Made by a program: the position numbers and the translations under genes. Below, piece by piece: positions 39,937 through 49,416 of a stretch of 64,000 nt of DNA; positions within the stretch are counted from its first letter, which is position 1, and each line of letters starts with the position of its first letter. The notes beneath the pieces are model-generated. The model was not told where the DNA came from. It ran no database searches and saw only the letters and a list, made by a program, of their open reading frames with translations. The stretch is from Streptomyces actuosus (GTDB lineage Bacteria; Actinomycetota; Actinomycetes; Streptomycetales; Streptomycetaceae). The DNA lies in assembly GCF_016921115.1 (NCBI RefSeq), contig NZ_JAFFZS010000001.1:594648-658647 (forward strand), in the 5' to 3' direction.

Positions 39937-40219
39937 TTCTTTCATCCTCTCGCACATGCCATCACTACTGCGTGAGCCGGGCGTTTATACCTGCCCGTAA
40001 GGACGGCTGTCCAGCGACCAGAAATAGCGGACATTTTCCAGATCGGTTCGCCCCCCGTGCCCACACGGCATGTCAAGTGTCGGCAATGTCCGACCACTTG
40101 ACTTCTCGTCATCGAGCTGGCTAGAAAATCGGCGTCGCTGCGCATGACCTTCCATCACCGCTGATGGAGCGGGTTATCGGCGGCATGTTCAGCACTCGAT
40201 GCACGAGGAAAGGTTTGAC

Positions 40220-43200
40220 GTGAGACCCAGATGGGGCACGCTTGTTGCGTGCCTGGTGGTATCCGCGGTGACAACTACCGCGCTGCCACAGGTCGCCTAT
40301 GCCGCACCCGCCGAAGACCGCGACGAAAAGGGTTTCGTCGACACCGTCAAAAGCTGGTTCGCGGATGATGGCAAGGAAAATGAGAAGCCGCCTTCGCATG
40401 ACGAATTGGGAATAGCCGACCGGCAGAAACTGCCGAAGGGCACCAAGGATCCCAAGGCCAGACGGGTCCGGGAGCTGACCGGGCGGCGGACGGCGAACGC
40501 GCGGTTCTGGCAGTTGTCGGACGGCCGGGTGCAGGCGGAGTTGTCGGCGGTGCCGACCTCCTACCGGGACGGTGCGTCCACGGCGTGGAAGGCGATCGAC
40601 ACCACGGTCCGCCCCGCGAAGGCGAAAGGTTTCGTCTTCGCCAACACGACGAATGAGGGGCGGGCGTGGTTCGGCGCGCATACGGGCCGGCTGGTGCGGT
40701 TCCAGGCCCCCGACGGCCGGGCCGTCACTCTCGGCCTGGACGGCGCGGGCAAGAGGCTGACCCCGCACGCCAAGGGCTCGACCGTCTCCTACGACGACGC
40801 CGCACACGGCGCGAAGCTGGCCTACGAGGTCGGTCCGGGGCGGGTGAAGGAGAACATCACCCTCGCGAAGCCGCCGTCCGGGCCGTTGAAGTTCACGTTC
40901 ACGCTGGATGCGGACGGGCTGACGCCGAAGGCGCGGCCGGATGGTTCGATCGCGCTGTTCGGGGAGCTGCCCCACACGCCGGTGATGGTGATCCCGGCGC
41001 CGTACATGACGGACGCGGCCAAGGCCGACACGTCGGTCTTCGGTGAGACCTACAGCCGCAAGGTCAGTCAGAGGCTGGTCCGGGACGGCGACCGCTGGAA
41101 GATCACGGTCACGCCTGATGCGGGCTGGCTGGCATCGAAGGACCGCCGGTACCCGGTGGTGATCGATCCCACCCTCACGATCGCGCCGTCTCCGTCGGGG
41201 GCGCAGGACGCGATGGTGCTGGCCGAGGCGCCGACGACGAACTACGGCAACTCGTGGAAGCTGTCGGTGGGTCGAACCTCTTCCGGTGCGGCGCGTTCGC
41301 TGATCGAGTTCCCGCTGGACGAGATCCCGTCGGGCACGCAGATCGATGCGGCCCGGCTGGAGATGTACTACGACAACACCCACACCACCGGTGGCACGAA
41401 CGTGCCGATCGAGGTGCACCAGGCGACGGGTGCGTGGGACGAGTCCACCGCGACGTGGGACAGCACCAGCTCCCTGGTGGGTGCACTGTCGGGGACGACG
41501 GTGCAGGTCGACGACGGGGACGCCGGCACCACGGCCGCGTCCGGGTCGTGGCCGGCGTCGGGTTCGTCGCTCACGCAGTACGCCATCGGCGGCGACTACC
41601 ACTACAACAAGGACGACATCGCCGGGGACACCTACACCTTCCAGCCCAGACTGCCGGAGGCGGACTCCTACCGCGTCGACGTGCACTACGTGCCCGCCTT
41701 CGACCGGGCGACGAACGCGCCGTTCACGGTGACCGGCAGCGGCGGCTCCACCACCTACACGGTGGACGAGTCAGCTGGCAGCAATGGTGTGTGGACGTCG
41801 CTGAACGGCGGCGGCAGGATCGCCTTCGCCAAGGGCACCGCCGGGAAGGTCGTCCTCGGCGACGGGCCCGCCTCCTCCTCGACCGCGGTGATCGCGGATG
41901 CGGTGCGCTGGGCGAACCCTGCGACCATCACCAAGGGCACCGGCGACTACAGCCAGTGGCACAGGTTCCCGGTCACCGACACCGTCCAGCAGTGGCTGGA
42001 CGGCACGGCGGCCAACAACGGCTTCGTCCTCAAGACGGCGGATGAGGCGGGAGGTCCGCTGGGCGGCCCCCGCTATGAGGCGGGCGACGGCTCCTACGGC
42101 GGGGAGACCTCCACCATCCCCCGGCTGACGGTGACCTACGGCAAGGTCGGCACCGAGTTGGACTCGCCGCAGGTGATCCACTCCACCGGTCCGGAGCTGT
42201 CGTGGAAGCCGTACGTCAACGACACCGGGGACAGCAGCAACAACATCGCCCAGTACGAGCTCTACCGCTCGACGCAGCAGGCGTTCACCCCGTCCGCGGC
42301 CACGCTGGTCGCCCCGATCGACAAGGGTGCGACGTCGTTCACGGACACCACCGCCACACCGACACCGGATTCCTCCTCGTCGGAGATCGGCCGCTCGTAC
42401 TACTACCAGATAGCGGTACGGACGGTGAACGGTGAGCTGCTGGGCTCCCCGACCCGACTGGTGGGCGTGCCCAAGGCCGGGCGGACGATGCGGCTGATCC
42501 AGGGCGCCTCCCAGATGAAGGACACCACCCTGTCCTCGGGTCAGCCGTCCACGAACGAGGACACGCTGTCGACGTGGGGCAAGCCGCAGTCCTGGCTGGA
42601 GGTCGGCGACAACTCCGCCACCTACGGCAAGGCCCGCGCCGCCCTGGACTTCGACACCTCCGCGATCCCGTCCTCGGCGACCGTGTTGGAGTCGCGGCTG
42701 TTCATGTGGGGCGCGGAGACCAACTACAGCTCCAACGGCGCCGTCTACGAACTCCACGGCCTGACGAAGAACTTCGACGAAACGTCGGCCACCTGGAACG
42801 ACGCGTCATCCGGCACGGCATGGAGCTCTCCGGGCGGTGACTACTCGGCCACGGTCTCGGACACCGTCGGCTCGGTCTCCGACGTGGGCCGGCACTGGTG
42901 GGACGCCACCTCGCTGACGCAGGGCTGGATCACCACCCCGTCCTCGAACCATGGCGCGCTGGTCAAGCTGAAGGACGAGTCCTCCACGGGCCCGCAGGAG
43001 CGCACCCTGTTCCTGTCCTCCGAGGCATCCGACTGGCAGCTCGGCCCGCTGCTGCGGGTCATCTACGTCGACTCCACGACCGCGGACACGTACTACGCGC
43101 CGCAGACGCCGTCGCGGATGACGCCCAACTCCACCTACAGCGTGGACTTCACCGTCACCAACACCACCAACGCCGCGTGGGCGGCCGGTGAGCGGGAGCT

Positions 43201-46200
43201 GTCCTACACCTGGAAGCTGCCCGACGGCACCGACGTCACCACCGGCGGCAACCAGGCATCCACCGCCGTCCCCGCGCTCGCCCCGGGCCAGTCGGCGACC
43301 ATCCAGGCCACCGTCGACACACCCATCAACTCAGACTCCGGGAACAAGCGCACCGACTACGTCCTCGGCTGGGACGTCCGGAGGGTCTCCGACAGCTCCT
43401 GGCTGTCCGCGACCCACACCTCCATCCAGCCGCTGCAGCAGAACGTGGCGGTGGAGGACCCCACCTCCAACACCCTCGGCCTGGAAAAGTTCTACTCCTA
43501 CACCGGAAAGAACACCGGCGCCGGCTCCACGGTCATGAACAACCTGGCCTCCGGCAACAGCGTCTGGTCCTACAACGCCTTCACCAACCCCGGCCGCGGT
43601 CTGACCACCTTCGCCCGTTTCGCCTACAACTCCCTCGACACCAGCGACACCGTCTCCGGCGCAGGCTGGTCGATGCAACTGGCCGCCCCCATCCGGCTCG
43701 GCGCACCACTGGACTTCCACCCCAACCCCAACCCCACCGAAGTCCGCCTCCCCGACGGCGACGGCACCGCCCACGTCTTCACCTGGGATGCGACGAACAG
43801 CGTGTGGAAGGCCCCTGCGGGTGTCCACTACCAGCTCACCATGAAGGCGGGCCTGGACTGCACGCCGGACAAGGACAACACCCCGGACGCCTGGACGCTC
43901 CTGCGTCCGGACGGCACCCGGTTCCTGTTCGGCTGCGACGGCTACCTCACCTCGGCCGTCGACAAGAACGGCAACACGCAGACGTACACGTACGCCGAGC
44001 GCAAGTCGAAGAACAAGCCGACGAAGTTCCTGCAGTACATCACCGACCCGGCCGGCCGGCAGTCCCTCACCGTGGACTACTACGAGAAGGGCGACGCCTC
44101 CTACGACTACATCGACGACACCGGCGCCAAGACCACCGGCAGCCACCTGACCAACTCCAAGATCTACGACCACATCAAGTCGATCACGGACATCTCCGGC
44201 CGGAAGATCTCCTTCTCCTACACGACCAAGGGCCTGCTCGGGCAGTTCACCGACGGCGACGGCTCCAACCAGCCGAAGGTCTTCAAGTTCACCTACGACG
44301 CCACCCAGGGCAACAAGAACGTCAAGCTCGTCACCGCCACCGACCCGCGCGGCCACGGCACGCAGCTGTCCTACTACGCCCCGCAGACCGGCGACGACCC
44401 CGCCTACCACTGGTGGACCAAGAGCATCACCGACCGCCTGAACGGCGACACCGGCTTCGCCTACACGGCGGACACCGTGAACACGAAGTTCACCGACACC
44501 ACCGTCACCGACGCCGAGAACCACGCCACCCAGTACGTCACCGACGACTTCGGCCGTCCGGTGCAGACCACCAACGCCAAATCCCAGACCACGAAGATGA
44601 GCTGGGACGCGGACAACAACGTCACCTACCTCGAAGAGGCCAACGGCGCCAAGACCGCCTACTGCTTCGACCCCAAGACCGGCTACCCGCTCTGGCAGCG
44701 CGACGCCGAGAACAACAAGGCGGGCGTGCCGGACCAGACGTCCACCTGCGTGAGCGACTCCTCGCAGTGGCCGGCGAACGCCGCCGCCTACGAGTACCAG
44801 ACCCGCGCCGACGGCTACTCCGCCGACCTGTTCCGCAAGACGTCGCCCGAGGGCCGCGCCTGGCAGTTCGGCTACGACACCTTCGGCAACCTCACCACGG
44901 TCACCGACCCCAAGGGTGTTGCCACCACCACGGTGCCGGACGACTACACCACGAAATACGACTACGACGCCTACGGTGAGCTGACCCAGGCGACCGACGC
45001 CAACGGCAACCCGACCACCAACAACGACTTCGGTCCGACGGGTTACCCGAACACGATCACGGACGCGCTGAACAACTCGACGACCTTCGTCTATGACGAG
45101 CGCGGCCAGGTCACCCAGGTGACCGACGCCGACCAGAAGACGACCACGCAGACGTACGACACGTACGGGCGTCCGCTGGTCAAGACGGTGCCTAAGGACC
45201 AGGCAGCGGGCGTTCTCATCACCACGCCTGCCCCGGAGTACGACGCCAACGACAACATCACCACCTGGACGGCGCCCAACGGCGCGGTGTCGACGGCCGT
45301 GTACGACGCTGGGGACCAGATGGTCTCGTCGACGGACCCGAAGGACACGCCGACCGGTCCGGAACGCAGGACCGACTACACCTACGACAAGACCGGTCAT
45401 CTGCGGACGACCGTTCAGCCCAAGGGCACCGCGACGACCACGGACCCGAACGACTACGCCACGACCCACAATTACGACGAGATCTACGAGATCACCTCCG
45501 TGGTCAACGCGGTCGGCGACAAGATCTCGTACGAGTACGACAACGTCGGCAACCTCGTCACGGTCATCGATCCGAAGAAGAACGCGACCGCCGACACCAC
45601 CGACTACACCAGCAAGACCGCCTACGACCTCGATCACCGGACCGTCTCGATCACCGACGCGCTGGGCAAGACCAGCTCGCGTACGTATGACAAGGACTCG
45701 CTCGTCGTCGCCAGCAAGGACGCCGAGAACAACGAGAGCCTGATCACCTACGACGAGCGGGGCAAGCAGACCGAGGTCGAGGTCCCGCACCAGGGCACCA
45801 GCCCCGACATCACCTACCGGACGACCAGGTACGAGTACGACCAGGTCGGCAACACCACGAAGGTGATCACCCCGCGGGGTGTGGAGACGGCGAACGCAGA
45901 CGACTTCACCTCCCGGACCGAGTACGACGCGCTGAACCGCCCGGTGAAGCAGTTCCAGCCGTACGACCCGGCGGACGCCCGCTACAACGATCCGAACGTC
46001 TACACCGAGACGGCGTACGACAAGGTGGGCCGGGTCGCCAAGACCTCCCTGCCGCCGTCCGAGGGCCAGACGGTCCGCAATGACGCCACGTACACCTACT
46101 TCGACAACGGCTGGACCAAGTCGACGACGGACCCGTGGGACATCGTCACCACGTACGACTACAACGGGCTGGGTCGACAGACCGCCCGGACCCTCACCTC

Positions 46201-48880
46201 GGCGGGAGGCTCGTCGAACCGCACGATGAGCTGGTCGTTCTACCCGGACGGCAAGCTGAAGTCGAAGACGGACGACGGTGTGCCGGTCGGCAGCGCGGTC
46301 CCGCTCGTCGACAACTCCGACACCCAGAACACCAGCTCCACCGGCACTTGGACCCATGCCGGCCTCCCCGGCCAGCAGGGTTACGACCACCAGGTCCACG
46401 CCGCCGGCACCGGGACGGACGCGTTCACGTGGACGCTGAACATCCCCAAGGACGGCACCTACACCGCCTACGTGAGGTACCCCCAGGTCACCGGCGCCGC
46501 GACGACCGCCAAGTACACGGTCACCAAGTCCGACGGCACCACCACGGACGTGATCCGGGACCAGAACGCGGCCCCGGGCACCTGGGTCAGCCTCGGCTCG
46601 TTCACCTTCACCCAGGGCAACGCGGCCAAGCTGCAACTGTTCCAGAACAGCGCGGGCGCGGTCGTCGCCGACGGCGTCAAGCTCGTGCGCGACAACTCGG
46701 GCGACACGGACGACGAGAAGCACAGCTTCGCCTACGCCTACGACGTCAACGGCAACCTGACGTCGATCGACGACGCCTCTCCCGGTGCACCGATCGATGC
46801 CTACACCATCGCCTACACGGGCCTGGACCAGATCCGGAAGGTGACCGAGTCGCTGGCCGGCCAGGAGAAGAAGGCCACCACCTACACGTACGACGCCAAC
46901 AGCCAGCCGGAGACGGTCACCCATCCCGACCAGTTCTCCAAATACACCTACGACACGCGTGAGATGACCAAGACGGTTTCGGTCGGCAAGTCGCCGACGG
47001 ACACGTCTGCCAAGGTCACGTCGTACACGTACACCGACCGCGGTCAGGTCCTGCACGAGACCAAGGACAACGGCAACACGGTCGACAGCGCCTACTTCCT
47101 CGACGGTACGGTCAAGTCCACCGTGGAGAAGAAGGCCGACGGCACCCTGGTCGCCTCGCACACCTACGACTACGACGCCAACGGCAACCCGACACAGGAC
47201 GCCGCGAAGAAGATGGACGCCGACAACCACTCGGCGTACCTCGACTCCACCACCGACTACACCTACGACCCGGTCGACCGACTCGCCAAGTCGGTCAAGA
47301 CCGGCAACGGCGCGTCGACCGACACCTACGTCCACGACGACAACGCCAACGTCATCAGCCAGACGGTCAAGGGCACGTCCACGACCTTCTCTTACGACCG
47401 CAACCGGCTGCAGAGCGCGTCCGTCGCCGGTACGGCGTTCCAGTACAACTACGACCCCTTCGGCCGCCAGGAATCGGTCACCAGCGACGGCCAGGTCGTC
47501 GGGCGCAGTGTGTACGACGGCTTCGACCACGTCGTCGAGTCCCAGAAGATGGACTCGACGGGTGCGATGAAGTCCACGACGTACACCTTCGACCCGCTCG
47601 ACCGCACCCTGTCCAAGACCGCCGGCGGCAAGACCACGGACTTCGAATACCTGGGGCTGTCCAGCGAGGTCCTGGACGAGAAGGTCGCCGGCCAGCTGTC
47701 GAAGTCCTACCAGTACAGCCCCTGGGGCGAGCGCCTGTCCCAGGTCGAGCACAACACCGACAGCACGACCGAGGACACCTACTACAGCTACAACGGCCAC
47801 ACCGACGTCGACGCGCTGACCGACAAGAACGGTGACACCAAGGCCACGTACGGCTACACCGCCTACGGAAGCGACGACACCTCCGAGTTCACCGGCATCG
47901 ACAAACCCGACGCCCAGAACCCCACCAAGGAGGACTACAACCCCTACCGCTACAACGGCAAGCGCTGGGACGCCCAGTCCGGCACCTACGACATGGGCTT
48001 CCGCGACTACGACCCGGGCCTCAACCGCTTCACCACCCGGGACATGTACACGGGCGCACTGGCCGACATGGGCCTCGGTGCCGACCCGTTCACCGGAAAC
48101 CGCTACGCCTTCGGCGGCGGCAACCCGGTGAGCAACGTCGAGTTGGACGGCCACTTCTTCCTCGTCGACGATCTGGTCGAAGTCACCGCCGTGGTCGTCG
48201 TGGTCGCCGCGGTCGCGACCTACGCCTACGCGACCGACCAGAACGTGCAGACCGCCGTCAACGACACCTTCGACTCGATCACATCGGGTCTCCAGGACCT
48301 CTTCAGCGACGACGACCCGGAGCCGGAGCCGGAGCCGGCTGCCCGGCCGCGCCCCGGTCCCCTTCCCGGGGACGGCTCGGGCACGGACAACAAGAAGCGG
48401 TGTGAGTCGGAGCCCAAGTCGTCCCGATTCCAGTACCAGCCGTTGGACGGGGCGAGCCGCGCCCAGGGGGCGACCGCGCTGATCTGCCCGAGTGACTACA
48501 AGCCCGTAGGCACGAAGAGGGACGACGGTGGCAAGGTGGACGTGTACGGATTCCCGGACCCCGCGCAGAACAAGACCAAGACGGGCGGGACCATCTTCGA
48601 CCGAACGCATATCGTCGGCGACAAGGTGGGCGGCGACTGGGTGAACGAGAACCTGTTCACCGGGTTCTCGCGCATGAACAAGAGCGGCATGCGGCGTTGC
48701 GAGATCAAGATGGAGCAGCAGCTCGCCGCTGGGAAGTGGGTCATGTACACAGGCAAGGTCAACTACAGCCACACCACCGGATATGCGGACAGCATCACCA
48801 TGTCCGCCTACACCGAGGACGGAGTATTGTTCAACAACATAGTGGTCCAGCAGAGCCCGAATTGGCAGACGACATGCTGA
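40220..48880 (+). CDS. Secreted RHS/YD-repeat polymorphic toxin with C-terminal nuclease-like domain
   Basis: A 2886-residue protein. GTG 40220 follows GAGGAAAGG by 6 bases (ATG 40199 is also in frame) and opens a signal peptide ending VAYAAPA. Two DNRLRE-type adhesive domains lie near residues 330-430 and 760-950 (TNYGNSWKLSVGR; TATWNDASSG), with golvesin-like domains near 430-570 and 2030-2160 (FTWTLNIPKDGTYTAYVRYP). YD repeats fill most of 1100-2645 and close with the RHS core RYNGKRWDAQSGTYDMGFRD and NRFTTRDMYTG. A hydrophobic segment (VVVVVAAVATYAYA, about 2660) follows. The last 160 residues hold IFDRTHIVGDKVGGDWVNEN and GFSRMNKSGMRRCE, like DNA/RNA non-specific endonucleases (DRGH-type site with H, then N). 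The immunity gene overlaps its stop. Confidence 0.9.
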   Translation: MRPRWGTLVACLVVSAVTTTALPQVAYAAPAEDRDEKGFVDTVKSWFADDGKENEKPPSHDELGIADRQKLPKGTKDPKARRVRELTGRRTANARFWQLSDGRVQAELSAVPTSYRDGASTAWKAIDTTVRPAKAKGFVFANTTNEGRAWFGAHTGRLVRFQAPDGRAVTLGLDGAGKRLTPHAKGSTVSYDDAAHGAKLAYEVGPGRVKENITLAKPPSGPLKFTFTLDADGLTPKARPDGSIALFGELPHTPVMVIPAPYMTDAAKADTSVFGETYSRKVSQRLVRDGDRWKITVTPDAGWLASKDRRYPVVIDPTLTIAPSPSGAQDAMVLAEAPTTNYGNSWKLSVGRTSSGAARSLIEFPLDEIPSGTQIDAARLEMYYDNTHTTGGTNVPIEVHQATGAWDESTATWDSTSSLVGALSGTTVQVDDGDAGTTAASGSWPASGSSLTQYAIGGDYHYNKDDIAGDTYTFQPRLPEADSYRVDVHYVPAFDRATNAPFTVTGSGGSTTYTVDESAGSNGVWTSLNGGGRIAFAKGTAGKVVLGDGPASSSTAVIADAVRWANPATITKGTGDYSQWHRFPVTDTVQQWLDGTAANNGFVLKTADEAGGPLGGPRYEAGDGSYGGETSTIPRLTVTYGKVGTELDSPQVIHSTGPELSWKPYVNDTGDSSNNIAQYELYRSTQQAFTPSAATLVAPIDKGATSFTDTTATPTPDSSSSEIGRSYYYQIAVRTVNGELLGSPTRLVGVPKAGRTMRLIQGASQMKDTTLSSGQPSTNEDTLSTWGKPQSWLEVGDNSATYGKARAALDFDTSAIPSSATVLESRLFMWGAETNYSSNGAVYELHGLTKNFDETSATWNDASSGTAWSSPGGDYSATVSDTVGSVSDVGRHWWDATSLTQGWITTPSSNHGALVKLKDESSTGPQERTLFLSSEASDWQLGPLLRVIYVDSTTADTYYAPQTPSRMTPNSTYSVDFTVTNTTNAAWAAGERELSYTWKLPDGTDVTTGGNQASTAVPALAPGQSATIQATVDTPINSDSGNKRTDYVLGWDVRRVSDSSWLSATHTSIQPLQQNVAVEDPTSNTLGLEKFYSYTGKNTGAGSTVMNNLASGNSVWSYNAFTNPGRGLTTFARFAYNSLDTSDTVSGAGWSMQLAAPIRLGAPLDFHPNPNPTEVRLPDGDGTAHVFTWDATNSVWKAPAGVHYQLTMKAGLDCTPDKDNTPDAWTLLRPDGTRFLFGCDGYLTSAVDKNGNTQTYTYAERKSKNKPTKFLQYITDPAGRQSLTVDYYEKGDASYDYIDDTGAKTTGSHLTNSKIYDHIKSITDISGRKISFSYTTKGLLGQFTDGDGSNQPKVFKFTYDATQGNKNVKLVTATDPRGHGTQLSYYAPQTGDDPAYHWWTKSITDRLNGDTGFAYTADTVNTKFTDTTVTDAENHATQYVTDDFGRPVQTTNAKSQTTKMSWDADNNVTYLEEANGAKTAYCFDPKTGYPLWQRDAENNKAGVPDQTSTCVSDSSQWPANAAAYEYQTRADGYSADLFRKTSPEGRAWQFGYDTFGNLTTVTDPKGVATTTVPDDYTTKYDYDAYGELTQATDANGNPTTNNDFGPTGYPNTITDALNNSTTFVYDERGQVTQVTDADQKTTTQTYDTYGRPLVKTVPKDQAAGVLITTPAPEYDANDNITTWTAPNGAVSTAVYDAGDQMVSSTDPKDTPTGPERRTDYTYDKTGHLRTTVQPKGTATTTDPNDYATTHNYDEIYEITSVVNAVGDKISYEYDNVGNLVTVIDPKKNATADTTDYTSKTAYDLDHRTVSITDALGKTSSRTYDKDSLVVASKDAENNESLITYDERGKQTEVEVPHQGTSPDITYRTTRYEYDQVGNTTKVITPRGVETANADDFTSRTEYDALNRPVKQFQPYDPADARYNDPNVYTETAYDKVGRVAKTSLPPSEGQTVRNDATYTYFDNGWTKSTTDPWDIVTTYDYNGLGRQTARTLTSAGGSSNRTMSWSFYPDGKLKSKTDDGVPVGSAVPLVDNSDTQNTSSTGTWTHAGLPGQQGYDHQVHAAGTGTDAFTWTLNIPKDGTYTAYVRYPQVTGAATTAKYTVTKSDGTTTDVIRDQNAAPGTWVSLGSFTFTQGNAAKLQLFQNSAGAVVADGVKLVRDNSGDTDDEKHSFAYAYDVNGNLTSIDDASPGAPIDAYTIAYTGLDQIRKVTESLAGQEKKATTYTYDANSQPETVTHPDQFSKYTYDTREMTKTVSVGKSPTDTSAKVTSYTYTDRGQVLHETKDNGNTVDSAYFLDGTVKSTVEKKADGTLVASHTYDYDANGNPTQDAAKKMDADNHSAYLDSTTDYTYDPVDRLAKSVKTGNGASTDTYVHDDNANVISQTVKGTSTTFSYDRNRLQSASVAGTAFQYNYDPFGRQESVTSDGQVVGRSVYDGFDHVVESQKMDSTGAMKSTTYTFDPLDRTLSKTAGGKTTDFEYLGLSSEVLDEKVAGQLSKSYQYSPWGERLSQVEHNTDSTTEDTYYSYNGHTDVDALTDKNGDTKATYGYTAYGSDDTSEFTGIDKPDAQNPTKEDYNPYRYNGKRWDAQSGTYDMGFRDYDPGLNRFTTRDMYTGALADMGLGADPFTGNRYAFGGGNPVSNVELDGHFFLVDDLVEVTAVVVVVAAVATYAYATDQNVQTAVNDTFDSITSGLQDLFSDDDPEPEPEPAARPRPGPLPGDGSGTDNKKRCESEPKSSRFQYQPLDGASRAQGATALICPSDYKPVGTKRDDGGKVDVYGFPDPAQNKTKTGGTIFDRTHIVGDKVGGDWVNENLFTGFSRMNKSGMRRCEIKMEQQLAAGKWVMYTGKVNYSHTTGYADSITMSAYTEDGVLFNNIVVQQSPNWQTTC

Positions 48881-49416
48881 GCGTCGAAGAGCTGGAGGCC
48901 GTGCTTCCGTCGATGACACGGTGGCGTGTGCCTGGTGGGCGCAGCGTGGATTGGGCCACCCTTGAGGCGGCCCTAGGAACGGCGCTGCCCTCCGACTTCC
49001 GTTCTCTGGCGGAGGCGTACCCCGTGCTGGTCGTCGATGACTTCCTCATGGTGTCCCTTCCAACGCCCGGCGCTGAGGCGCTGTGGGCGTCCGGGCGCCG
49101 TGAGGACGAGATCCTTCAGGATCTGTACGAGATGGGCGACACCCAGGGCTACGTCCCCTTTCCCGAGCCGGGCGGCCTGATCAGCTGGGCGTCGTCCTAT
49201 TCGGGGGACTCCTTCTACTGGAAGACAAGCCCCACGGACCCAGACGCATGGCCAGTGGTCGTCCGCACGGACAACGCCGAGTGGTTCGAGTTCCCGGTCG
49301 GCGCCGTCAAGTTCTTGGTCGGCGTGTACGGGCGCACCGTCGATGTGCCGGGTATGCCCAGGAACTTCCCCGGCGACTTCCCGCAGGTGCTCGGCCTGAG
49401 CGACGGCATCGACTGA
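48874..49416 (+). CDS. SUKH (SMI1/KNR4)-type immunity protein
   Basis: A 180-residue acidic cytoplasmic protein whose ATG lies inside the last codons of the toxin gene (7-base overlap), the classic position for an immunity gene. SMI1/KNR4-like features are VDWATLEAALGTALPSDFRS, LAEAYPVLVVDDFLMVSLP, and later YVPFPEPGGLISWASSYSGD and SFYWKTSPTDPDAWPVVV, ending with a segment near FEFPVGAVKFLVGVYG. SUKH proteins bind and neutralise the cognate nuclease domain. The start is fixed by the overlap and by the family start; no separate ribosome site is needed. A strong terminator follows at 49449. Confidence 0.85.
   Translation: MLSVEELEAVLPSMTRWRVPGGRSVDWATLEAALGTALPSDFRSLAEAYPVLVVDDFLMVSLPTPGAEALWASGRREDEILQDLYEMGDTQGYVPFPEPGGLISWASSYSGDSFYWKTSPTDPDAWPVVVRTDNAEWFEFPVGAVKFLVGVYGRTVDVPGMPRNFPGDFPQVLGLSDGID

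Follow-up and report, generated by a model that had tools for sequence, protein, structure and literature searches.

The 64,000-nucleotide stretch of Streptomyces actuosus analysed here (the window; contig NZ_JAFFZS010000001.1, positions 594,648 to 658,647) carries two overlapping genes on its forward strand, one for a very large RHS protein tipped by a nuclease-family domain, the other for a partner with a predicted SUKH-type fold. We read this intact two-gene locus as encoding a DNase toxin secreted against other bacteria, together with the protein that makes the producer immune to it, a reading we hold with good, if not complete, confidence. The RHS reading frame (40199-48880, +) is uninterrupted over its full length. 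Of its two possible starts, GTG 40220 is better supported than ATG 40199, because a GAGGAAAGG run resembling a ribosome site (40205..40213, +, found by eye) ends 6 nt ahead of the GTG; the toxin gene accordingly spans 40220..48880 and encodes 2,886 amino acids (2,893 from the ATG). By eye, and without a predictor, its N-terminus reads as a Sec-type signal sequence (MRPRWGTLVACLVVSAVTTTALPQVAYA/AP; 40220..40303, +). The partner gene (48874..49416, +; 180 aa), the predicted immunity gene, begins with an ATG at 48874 that lies within the toxin's terminal Thr-Cys-stop. The two genes thus share the 7 nt ATGCTGA (48874..48880, +), the toxin stop occupying 48878-48880 and the junction reading ACA-TGC-TGA. 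A complete toxin of 2886 residues, with a SUKH-type gene starting 7 bases inside its stop, had been proposed in a first-pass annotation made from the letters alone; frame and start codon agree with it.

The scaffold is composite, and its pieces, all on the + strand, are those already named in that annotation. DNRLRE is found in three stretches (Pfam and NCBIfam profile searches) and Golvesin_C in two (Pfam; the profile search places the best stretch only). A first DNRLRE piece (41204..41527, in window coordinates; NF033679, model 1-110) is followed by a golvesin-like domain (41561..41923, edges by eye) and a second DNRLRE piece (41909..42136; model 96-164), so that this golvesin domain, placed by eye, is apparently inserted within a split DNRLRE domain. 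A complete DNRLRE copy (42518..43060; model 1-163) comes next. The YD/RHS repeats, eleven stretches by Pfam, extend over 44834..45727 in the matches listed, and the other Golvesin_C domain (46304..46690, residues 2036-2164; Pfam) sits within the RHS region. The RHS repeat-associated core (TIGR03696; 47912..48154, residues 2572-2652) is succeeded by a V/A-rich hydrophobic segment (48161..48238, edges approximate). A match to a TGF-beta propeptide was disregarded, as it scored 24.0 against a cut-off of 25.8.

The tip itself, as modelled, comprises 173 residues with four cysteines (48359..48877, +; pLDDT 89.9). It contains a match to the DNA/RNA non-specific endonuclease family PF13930 (Endonuclea_NS_2; 48434-48805, +, residues 2746-2869) with a score of 40.6 bits, the curated cut-off being 27, and 32 of the 33 members of the tip set A2 match the same family (E 0.01). 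The confident model shows the beta-beta-alpha-metal nuclease fold known from Sda1, NucA, EndA, EsaD and Serratia nuclease. The best match in both sequence profile and fold is Sda1, alias streptodornase D (PDB 5fgw, 5fgu). The nuclease-like tip of the first-pass annotation is therewith given a family and a fold.

The active-site-like motif reads D-R-T-H (48599..48610, +; tip alignment). The conserved stretch from Asn-107 to Glu-115 (tip numbering; 48677..48703, +) would, by analogy, be the metal-site helix. The tip possesses the His, Asn, Asn and Glu listed for Tox-NucA, although which Asn corresponds to which can only be presumed. The Gly that precedes the motif His in Tox-NucA (GH) is Thr in the window's tip. 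This is no oddity of a single protein: the tip is common to 38 proteins, the query included, 37 of which have Thr or Ser at this position, and the motif His is kept in all 78 distinct aligned tips. As judged from the alignments, the Thr/Ser form marks a coherent clade of tips, which probably act like Tox-NucA, yet are not strict GH members. The observation of Thr in place of Gly thus stands; the suggestion of a divergent family, drawn from it earlier, does not. An unassigned divergent nuclease is ruled out by the PF13930 cut-off passed and by the known fold, and the motif of Sda1 is itself reported as DRSH, i.e., with Ser at the same position (PMC4220975).

The partner, too, can be placed by its predicted structure: its confident model has the SUKH/Knr4 fold. 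The Pfam cut-off of SUKH_6 (PF14568) is not reached (15.6 vs 27 bits); 31 of the 36 members of the partner set A3 match SUKH_6 at E 0.1, the best with 1.4e-6. A signal sequence is not evident by eye. YobK is a SUKH immunity protein; EsaG, the immunity protein of EsaD, is not known to be a SUKH protein. The SMI1/KNR4-type proteins 3d5p, YobK (2prv) and yeast Knr4 share 11-14% identity with the partner.

A strong argument for a toxin/immunity pair comes from loci in which the same RHS core carries different tips. With the 241 residues ahead of the tip as query, the core is found at E 1e-20 in 78 places of 50 among 295 Streptomyces genomes; 30 of these places, one per genome and best first, were compared. 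Over their first 173 residues the cores are 75.7-100% identical. Their tips, in contrast, fall into seven groups (all-against-all BLASTP, E 1e-5), one of 22 loci and six that cover the other 8, among them L125, where the sequence after the core is masked by N. PF13930 (E 0.01) is matched by 22/22 tips of the large group and by 0/7 of the readable others. A SUKH-like gene follows 21 of the 22 PF13930 tips, the sole exception being L103, and none of the 8 other tips (0/7 without the masked L125); the downstream match starts within 200 nt, except in L113, where it starts at 419 nt. Fisher's test yields a p of 1.5e-6 (5.1e-6 without the masked locus), which can only be a guide, since the loci are related by descent. 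Nor does the similarity of the core predict the tip. In L114 and L117 the core shares 86.7% identity with that of the window's toxin, and the tip is unrelated; in L118 the core shares just 75.7%, and the tip still 73%. The SUKH-like gene tracks the tip, not the scaffold. The same scaffold with other tips here serves as an internal control, and the covariation that the annotation's SUKH assignment called for is present.

Two of the seven readable tips that do not match PF13930 match another DNase family, DNase_NucA_NucB. These are L114 and L115, in which the same core ends in this domain (PF14040, 85.7 bits in L114) and lacks a SUKH-like gene downstream.

A second line of evidence is the association of tip and partner, both searched in the same 295 genomes. 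The tip is matched in 27 of them, 12 strongly (E 5.2e-24 or better) and 15 weakly. In all 12 strong genomes a homologue of the partner lies directly downstream; in 12 of the 15 weak ones a SUKH-like open reading frame does (domain E below 0.05, filters off). This makes 24 of 27 tip genomes. The three tip loci without it are L080, L088 and L090, the tip match of L088 being doubtful. In the named genome collection, the partner adjoins the tip in 5/5 tip loci, of which two belong to genomes that are also among the 295 (G097, G085). Searched on its own, the partner matches 191/295 genomes, mostly by distant SUKH-like genes; matches of 78% identity or more occur in 7 genomes, and in 3 of these the tip adjoins. 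Pairwise identities of tip and partner covary with r 0.95 over 27 pairs, and within groups with r 0.93 (15 Thr/Ser loci) and 0.92 (12 Gly/Ala loci), a value reached by 0/5000 permutations in each. This correlation can be explained by linked inheritance alone; the same-core comparison is the stronger argument.

Partner orthologues also occur apart from this tip. Four of them, 79-83% identical, look like orphan immunity-type genes (L058 5650-6186, L060 5742-6266, L061 5965-6504 and L059 5610-6149). No tip or RHS core was found in the 16 kb covered at L058, L060 and L061; in L059 another PF13930-like tip, with a SUKH-like gene of its own, precedes the orthologue. In Streptomyces sp. VRA16 a second close SUKH copy (L009 10039-10569) follows some 3 kb further downstream.

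A conserved scaffold with variable tips, an adjacent covarying immunity-type gene and standalone cassettes are the marks of a polymorphic toxin, and all of them are found here. Besides the DNRLRE/golvesin scaffold, the tip rides on LamG-type scaffolds, and a search of short proteins only found it in 30 short proteins or fragments, some of which may have been cut by contig ends. In S. regalis (L062 6872-11507, the same locus as L012), a stand-alone tip with its SUKH gene, set between RHS core fragments, lies behind a larger RHS frame; we take this array to be one of orphan cassettes. The hydrophobic segment and the nuclease tip do not go strictly together: 12 of the 38 tip proteins (P0028-P0039, some with LamG-type scaffolds) lack the segment, and the other 26 carry it behind the core.

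How would such a pair work? Exported through Sec, the RHS protein would remain at or close to the cell surface or be released. Its DNRLRE and golvesin domains might contact a neighbouring cell, and the RHS shell would hold the tip and then free it. The tip would cleave DNA in the cytoplasm of the neighbour; the partner would bind the tip and thereby shield the producer and its kin. A precedent for this mechanism is WapA of Bacillus subtilis, reported to carry a secretion signal at its N-terminus, to act by contact-dependent inhibition and to have a cognate immunity gene, wapI (PMC5566331). How the tip would be freed is less clear. DPxGL is the cleavage motif of other RHS proteins. Among the tip proteins the core ends in NPVSNVE[LVIM]DGH wherever the pattern was matched; it differs from DPxGL, and self-cleavage is therefore uncertain.

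The export by Sec deserves a critical look. The N-termini of the tip proteins P0004, P0026 and P0028 resemble that of the window's toxin. Of the 38 tip proteins, 18 start with MVLSD in their annotation, which may or may not be right, and have no signal; this speaks against the signal being general. Type VI delivery, already disfavoured by the first-pass annotation on account of the Sec-type N-terminus, is unlikely because a search of the 8.4-Mb assembly, with E. coli as a positive control that did match, found no VipB/TssC. A Pfam scan also found no PAAR domain in the toxin. The host genome does contain a contractile-sheath gene (C188:67738-68199, PF04984), which suggests that it has a gene for a phage-tail-like or injection-type particle. 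That the toxin is the cargo of such an injection system is nevertheless highly improbable: the sheath gene and the toxin gene are on different contigs, VipB/TssC is missing from the search results as mentioned, and the toxin has, by eye, a Sec-type signal of its own. Still more far-fetched is the idea of a tip that has lost its catalytic activity, in a locus that would be a relic or an adhesin. The replacement of the motif Gly by Thr might be so read; the motif His, however, persists in every distinct tip, Sda1 is reported to have DRSH (PMC4220975), and both the toxin frame and the partner are intact.

The rival to be taken most seriously, though it too appears unlikely, is a secreted nuclease that acts outside cells on matrix or nutrient DNA, with a partner whose sole task would be to guard the producer against toxin that goes astray within its own cell. 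Several of the closest structures bear titles of extracellular nucleases or streptodornases (2xgr, 2xh3, 5fgw), the N-terminus is of the Sec type by eye, and the four cysteines of the tip tend to be kept together (see below). A partner of cytosolic appearance that tracks the tip rather than the scaffold does not fit such a nuclease well, nor do tips swapped on one RHS scaffold, as is typical of polymorphic toxins. We therefore stay with the antibacterial toxin and its immunity protein, a pair that offers itself for a toxin/immunity test in Streptomyces.

The combination of tip and partner is of an already known kind, RHS/NucA/SUKH, to which the window's pair adds a new member that varies by Thr/Ser in the motif. 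Zhang et al. catalogued this kind in 2012: their Tables 2 and 3 list RHS repeats, occurrence in Actinobacteria and Imm-SUKH for Tox-NucA (GH, N, N, E) (PMC3482391). The window's pair shares with these entries the His/Asn/Asn/Glu tip, the RHS repeats, the actinobacterial spread and the SUKH immunity; it differs by Thr/Ser instead of the motif Gly, by four cysteines and by a terminal Cys that overlaps the partner's start. Sda1 resembles the tip in profile, fold and, as reported, its DRSH motif (PMC4220975); by title it is a separate extracellular DNase, whereas the nuclease described here sits at the end of an RHS protein and has a predicted immunity partner. WapA appears akin to the toxin by its cognate immunity gene and, if the signal read by eye holds, by its N-terminal secretion signal; its tip is reported to be a tRNase, unlike the nuclease-family tip described here (PMC5566331). 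Taken as a whole genome, B. subtilis matches both the RHS repeat and the DNRLRE profiles. Bacterial teneurin-like RHS proteins are described as forming a barrel around the toxin and having an immunity protein encoded in the operon (PMC13018210). EsaD (PDB 8gun), a DNase toxin of Staphylococcus aureus, differs by type VII secretion and EsaG immunity, as reported (PMC9484751). Among the matches listed, no title deals with the Thr/Ser clade or a Streptomyces RHS toxin; most subscription journals lie outside that search, and absence from print is not claimed.

What may be an unreported detail of the clade is the start of the partner inside the last two codons of the toxin, combined with a conserved terminal Cys. 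In all 15 distinct Thr/Ser-type tip loci the toxin ends with a Cys codon and TGA. The codon at the overlap position is ATG in 12, GTG in 2 and CTG in 1, and, from the frame, these would be the real starts of the partners. For the 12 Gly/Ala-type loci, 66-194 nt separate the end of the toxin from the start of the SUKH-like match. By rough counts (windows of 3-6 alignment columns, the 12 N-terminally cut tips of the 78 left out), all four cysteines, Cys-15, 43, 114 and 173 in tip numbering, are present in 45/49 full-length Thr/Ser tips, and the third and fourth together in 48/49, vs 2/17 of the other full-length tips. An ATG or GTG at the junction spacing before TGA, however, permits only Cys or Trp as the last residue of the toxin, and the conservation of the terminal Cys alone is therefore no proof of a disulfide. 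It is tempting, if rather speculative, to see in the Thr/Ser tips an RHS nuclease toxin clade of its own, in which Cys-114 (beside the conserved Glu-115) and Cys-173 form a second Cys pair that anchors the C-terminus to the metal-site helix. Outside the cell the tip would stay oxidised and inactive, and the reducing conditions in the target's cytoplasm would activate it. The terminal Cys codon would also contribute to the immunity gene's start codon. If so, toxin and immunity could not be separated without breaking one of them, since the same codon serves both. The Thr/Ser motif and the start codon within a conserved terminal Cys raise the question of how much an active site tolerates and what an overlap constrains.

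Some minor observations remain. A promoter scan of the locus found no promoter, and terminator-like sites there did not exceed chance level. An antisense frame of 1,862 codons (window 43331-48919, -) overlies the RHS gene; its translation is repetitive and R/V/G-rich, and by eye it looks like an artefact of high G+C. Elsewhere in the host genome there are eight further large RHS-repeat frames of 780-2739 aa (L044-L051, on contigs C112, C56, C100, C285, C263, C296, C254 and C78) with varied C-terminal ends; their backbones show little or no relation to that of the window's toxin: identities are 22-28%, or 40% over 91 residues, and 2/8 show no match. The window's own tip is the only PF13930 tip matched in this genome. 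A tip swap among the host's own RHS paralogues is ruled out by the low identity and by the lack of a PF13930 tip in any of them. At C134:62085-62435 (-), finally, 117 residues are 91% identical to the RHS core and contain one in-frame TGA; this stretch is probably a broken fragment of a second core copy.
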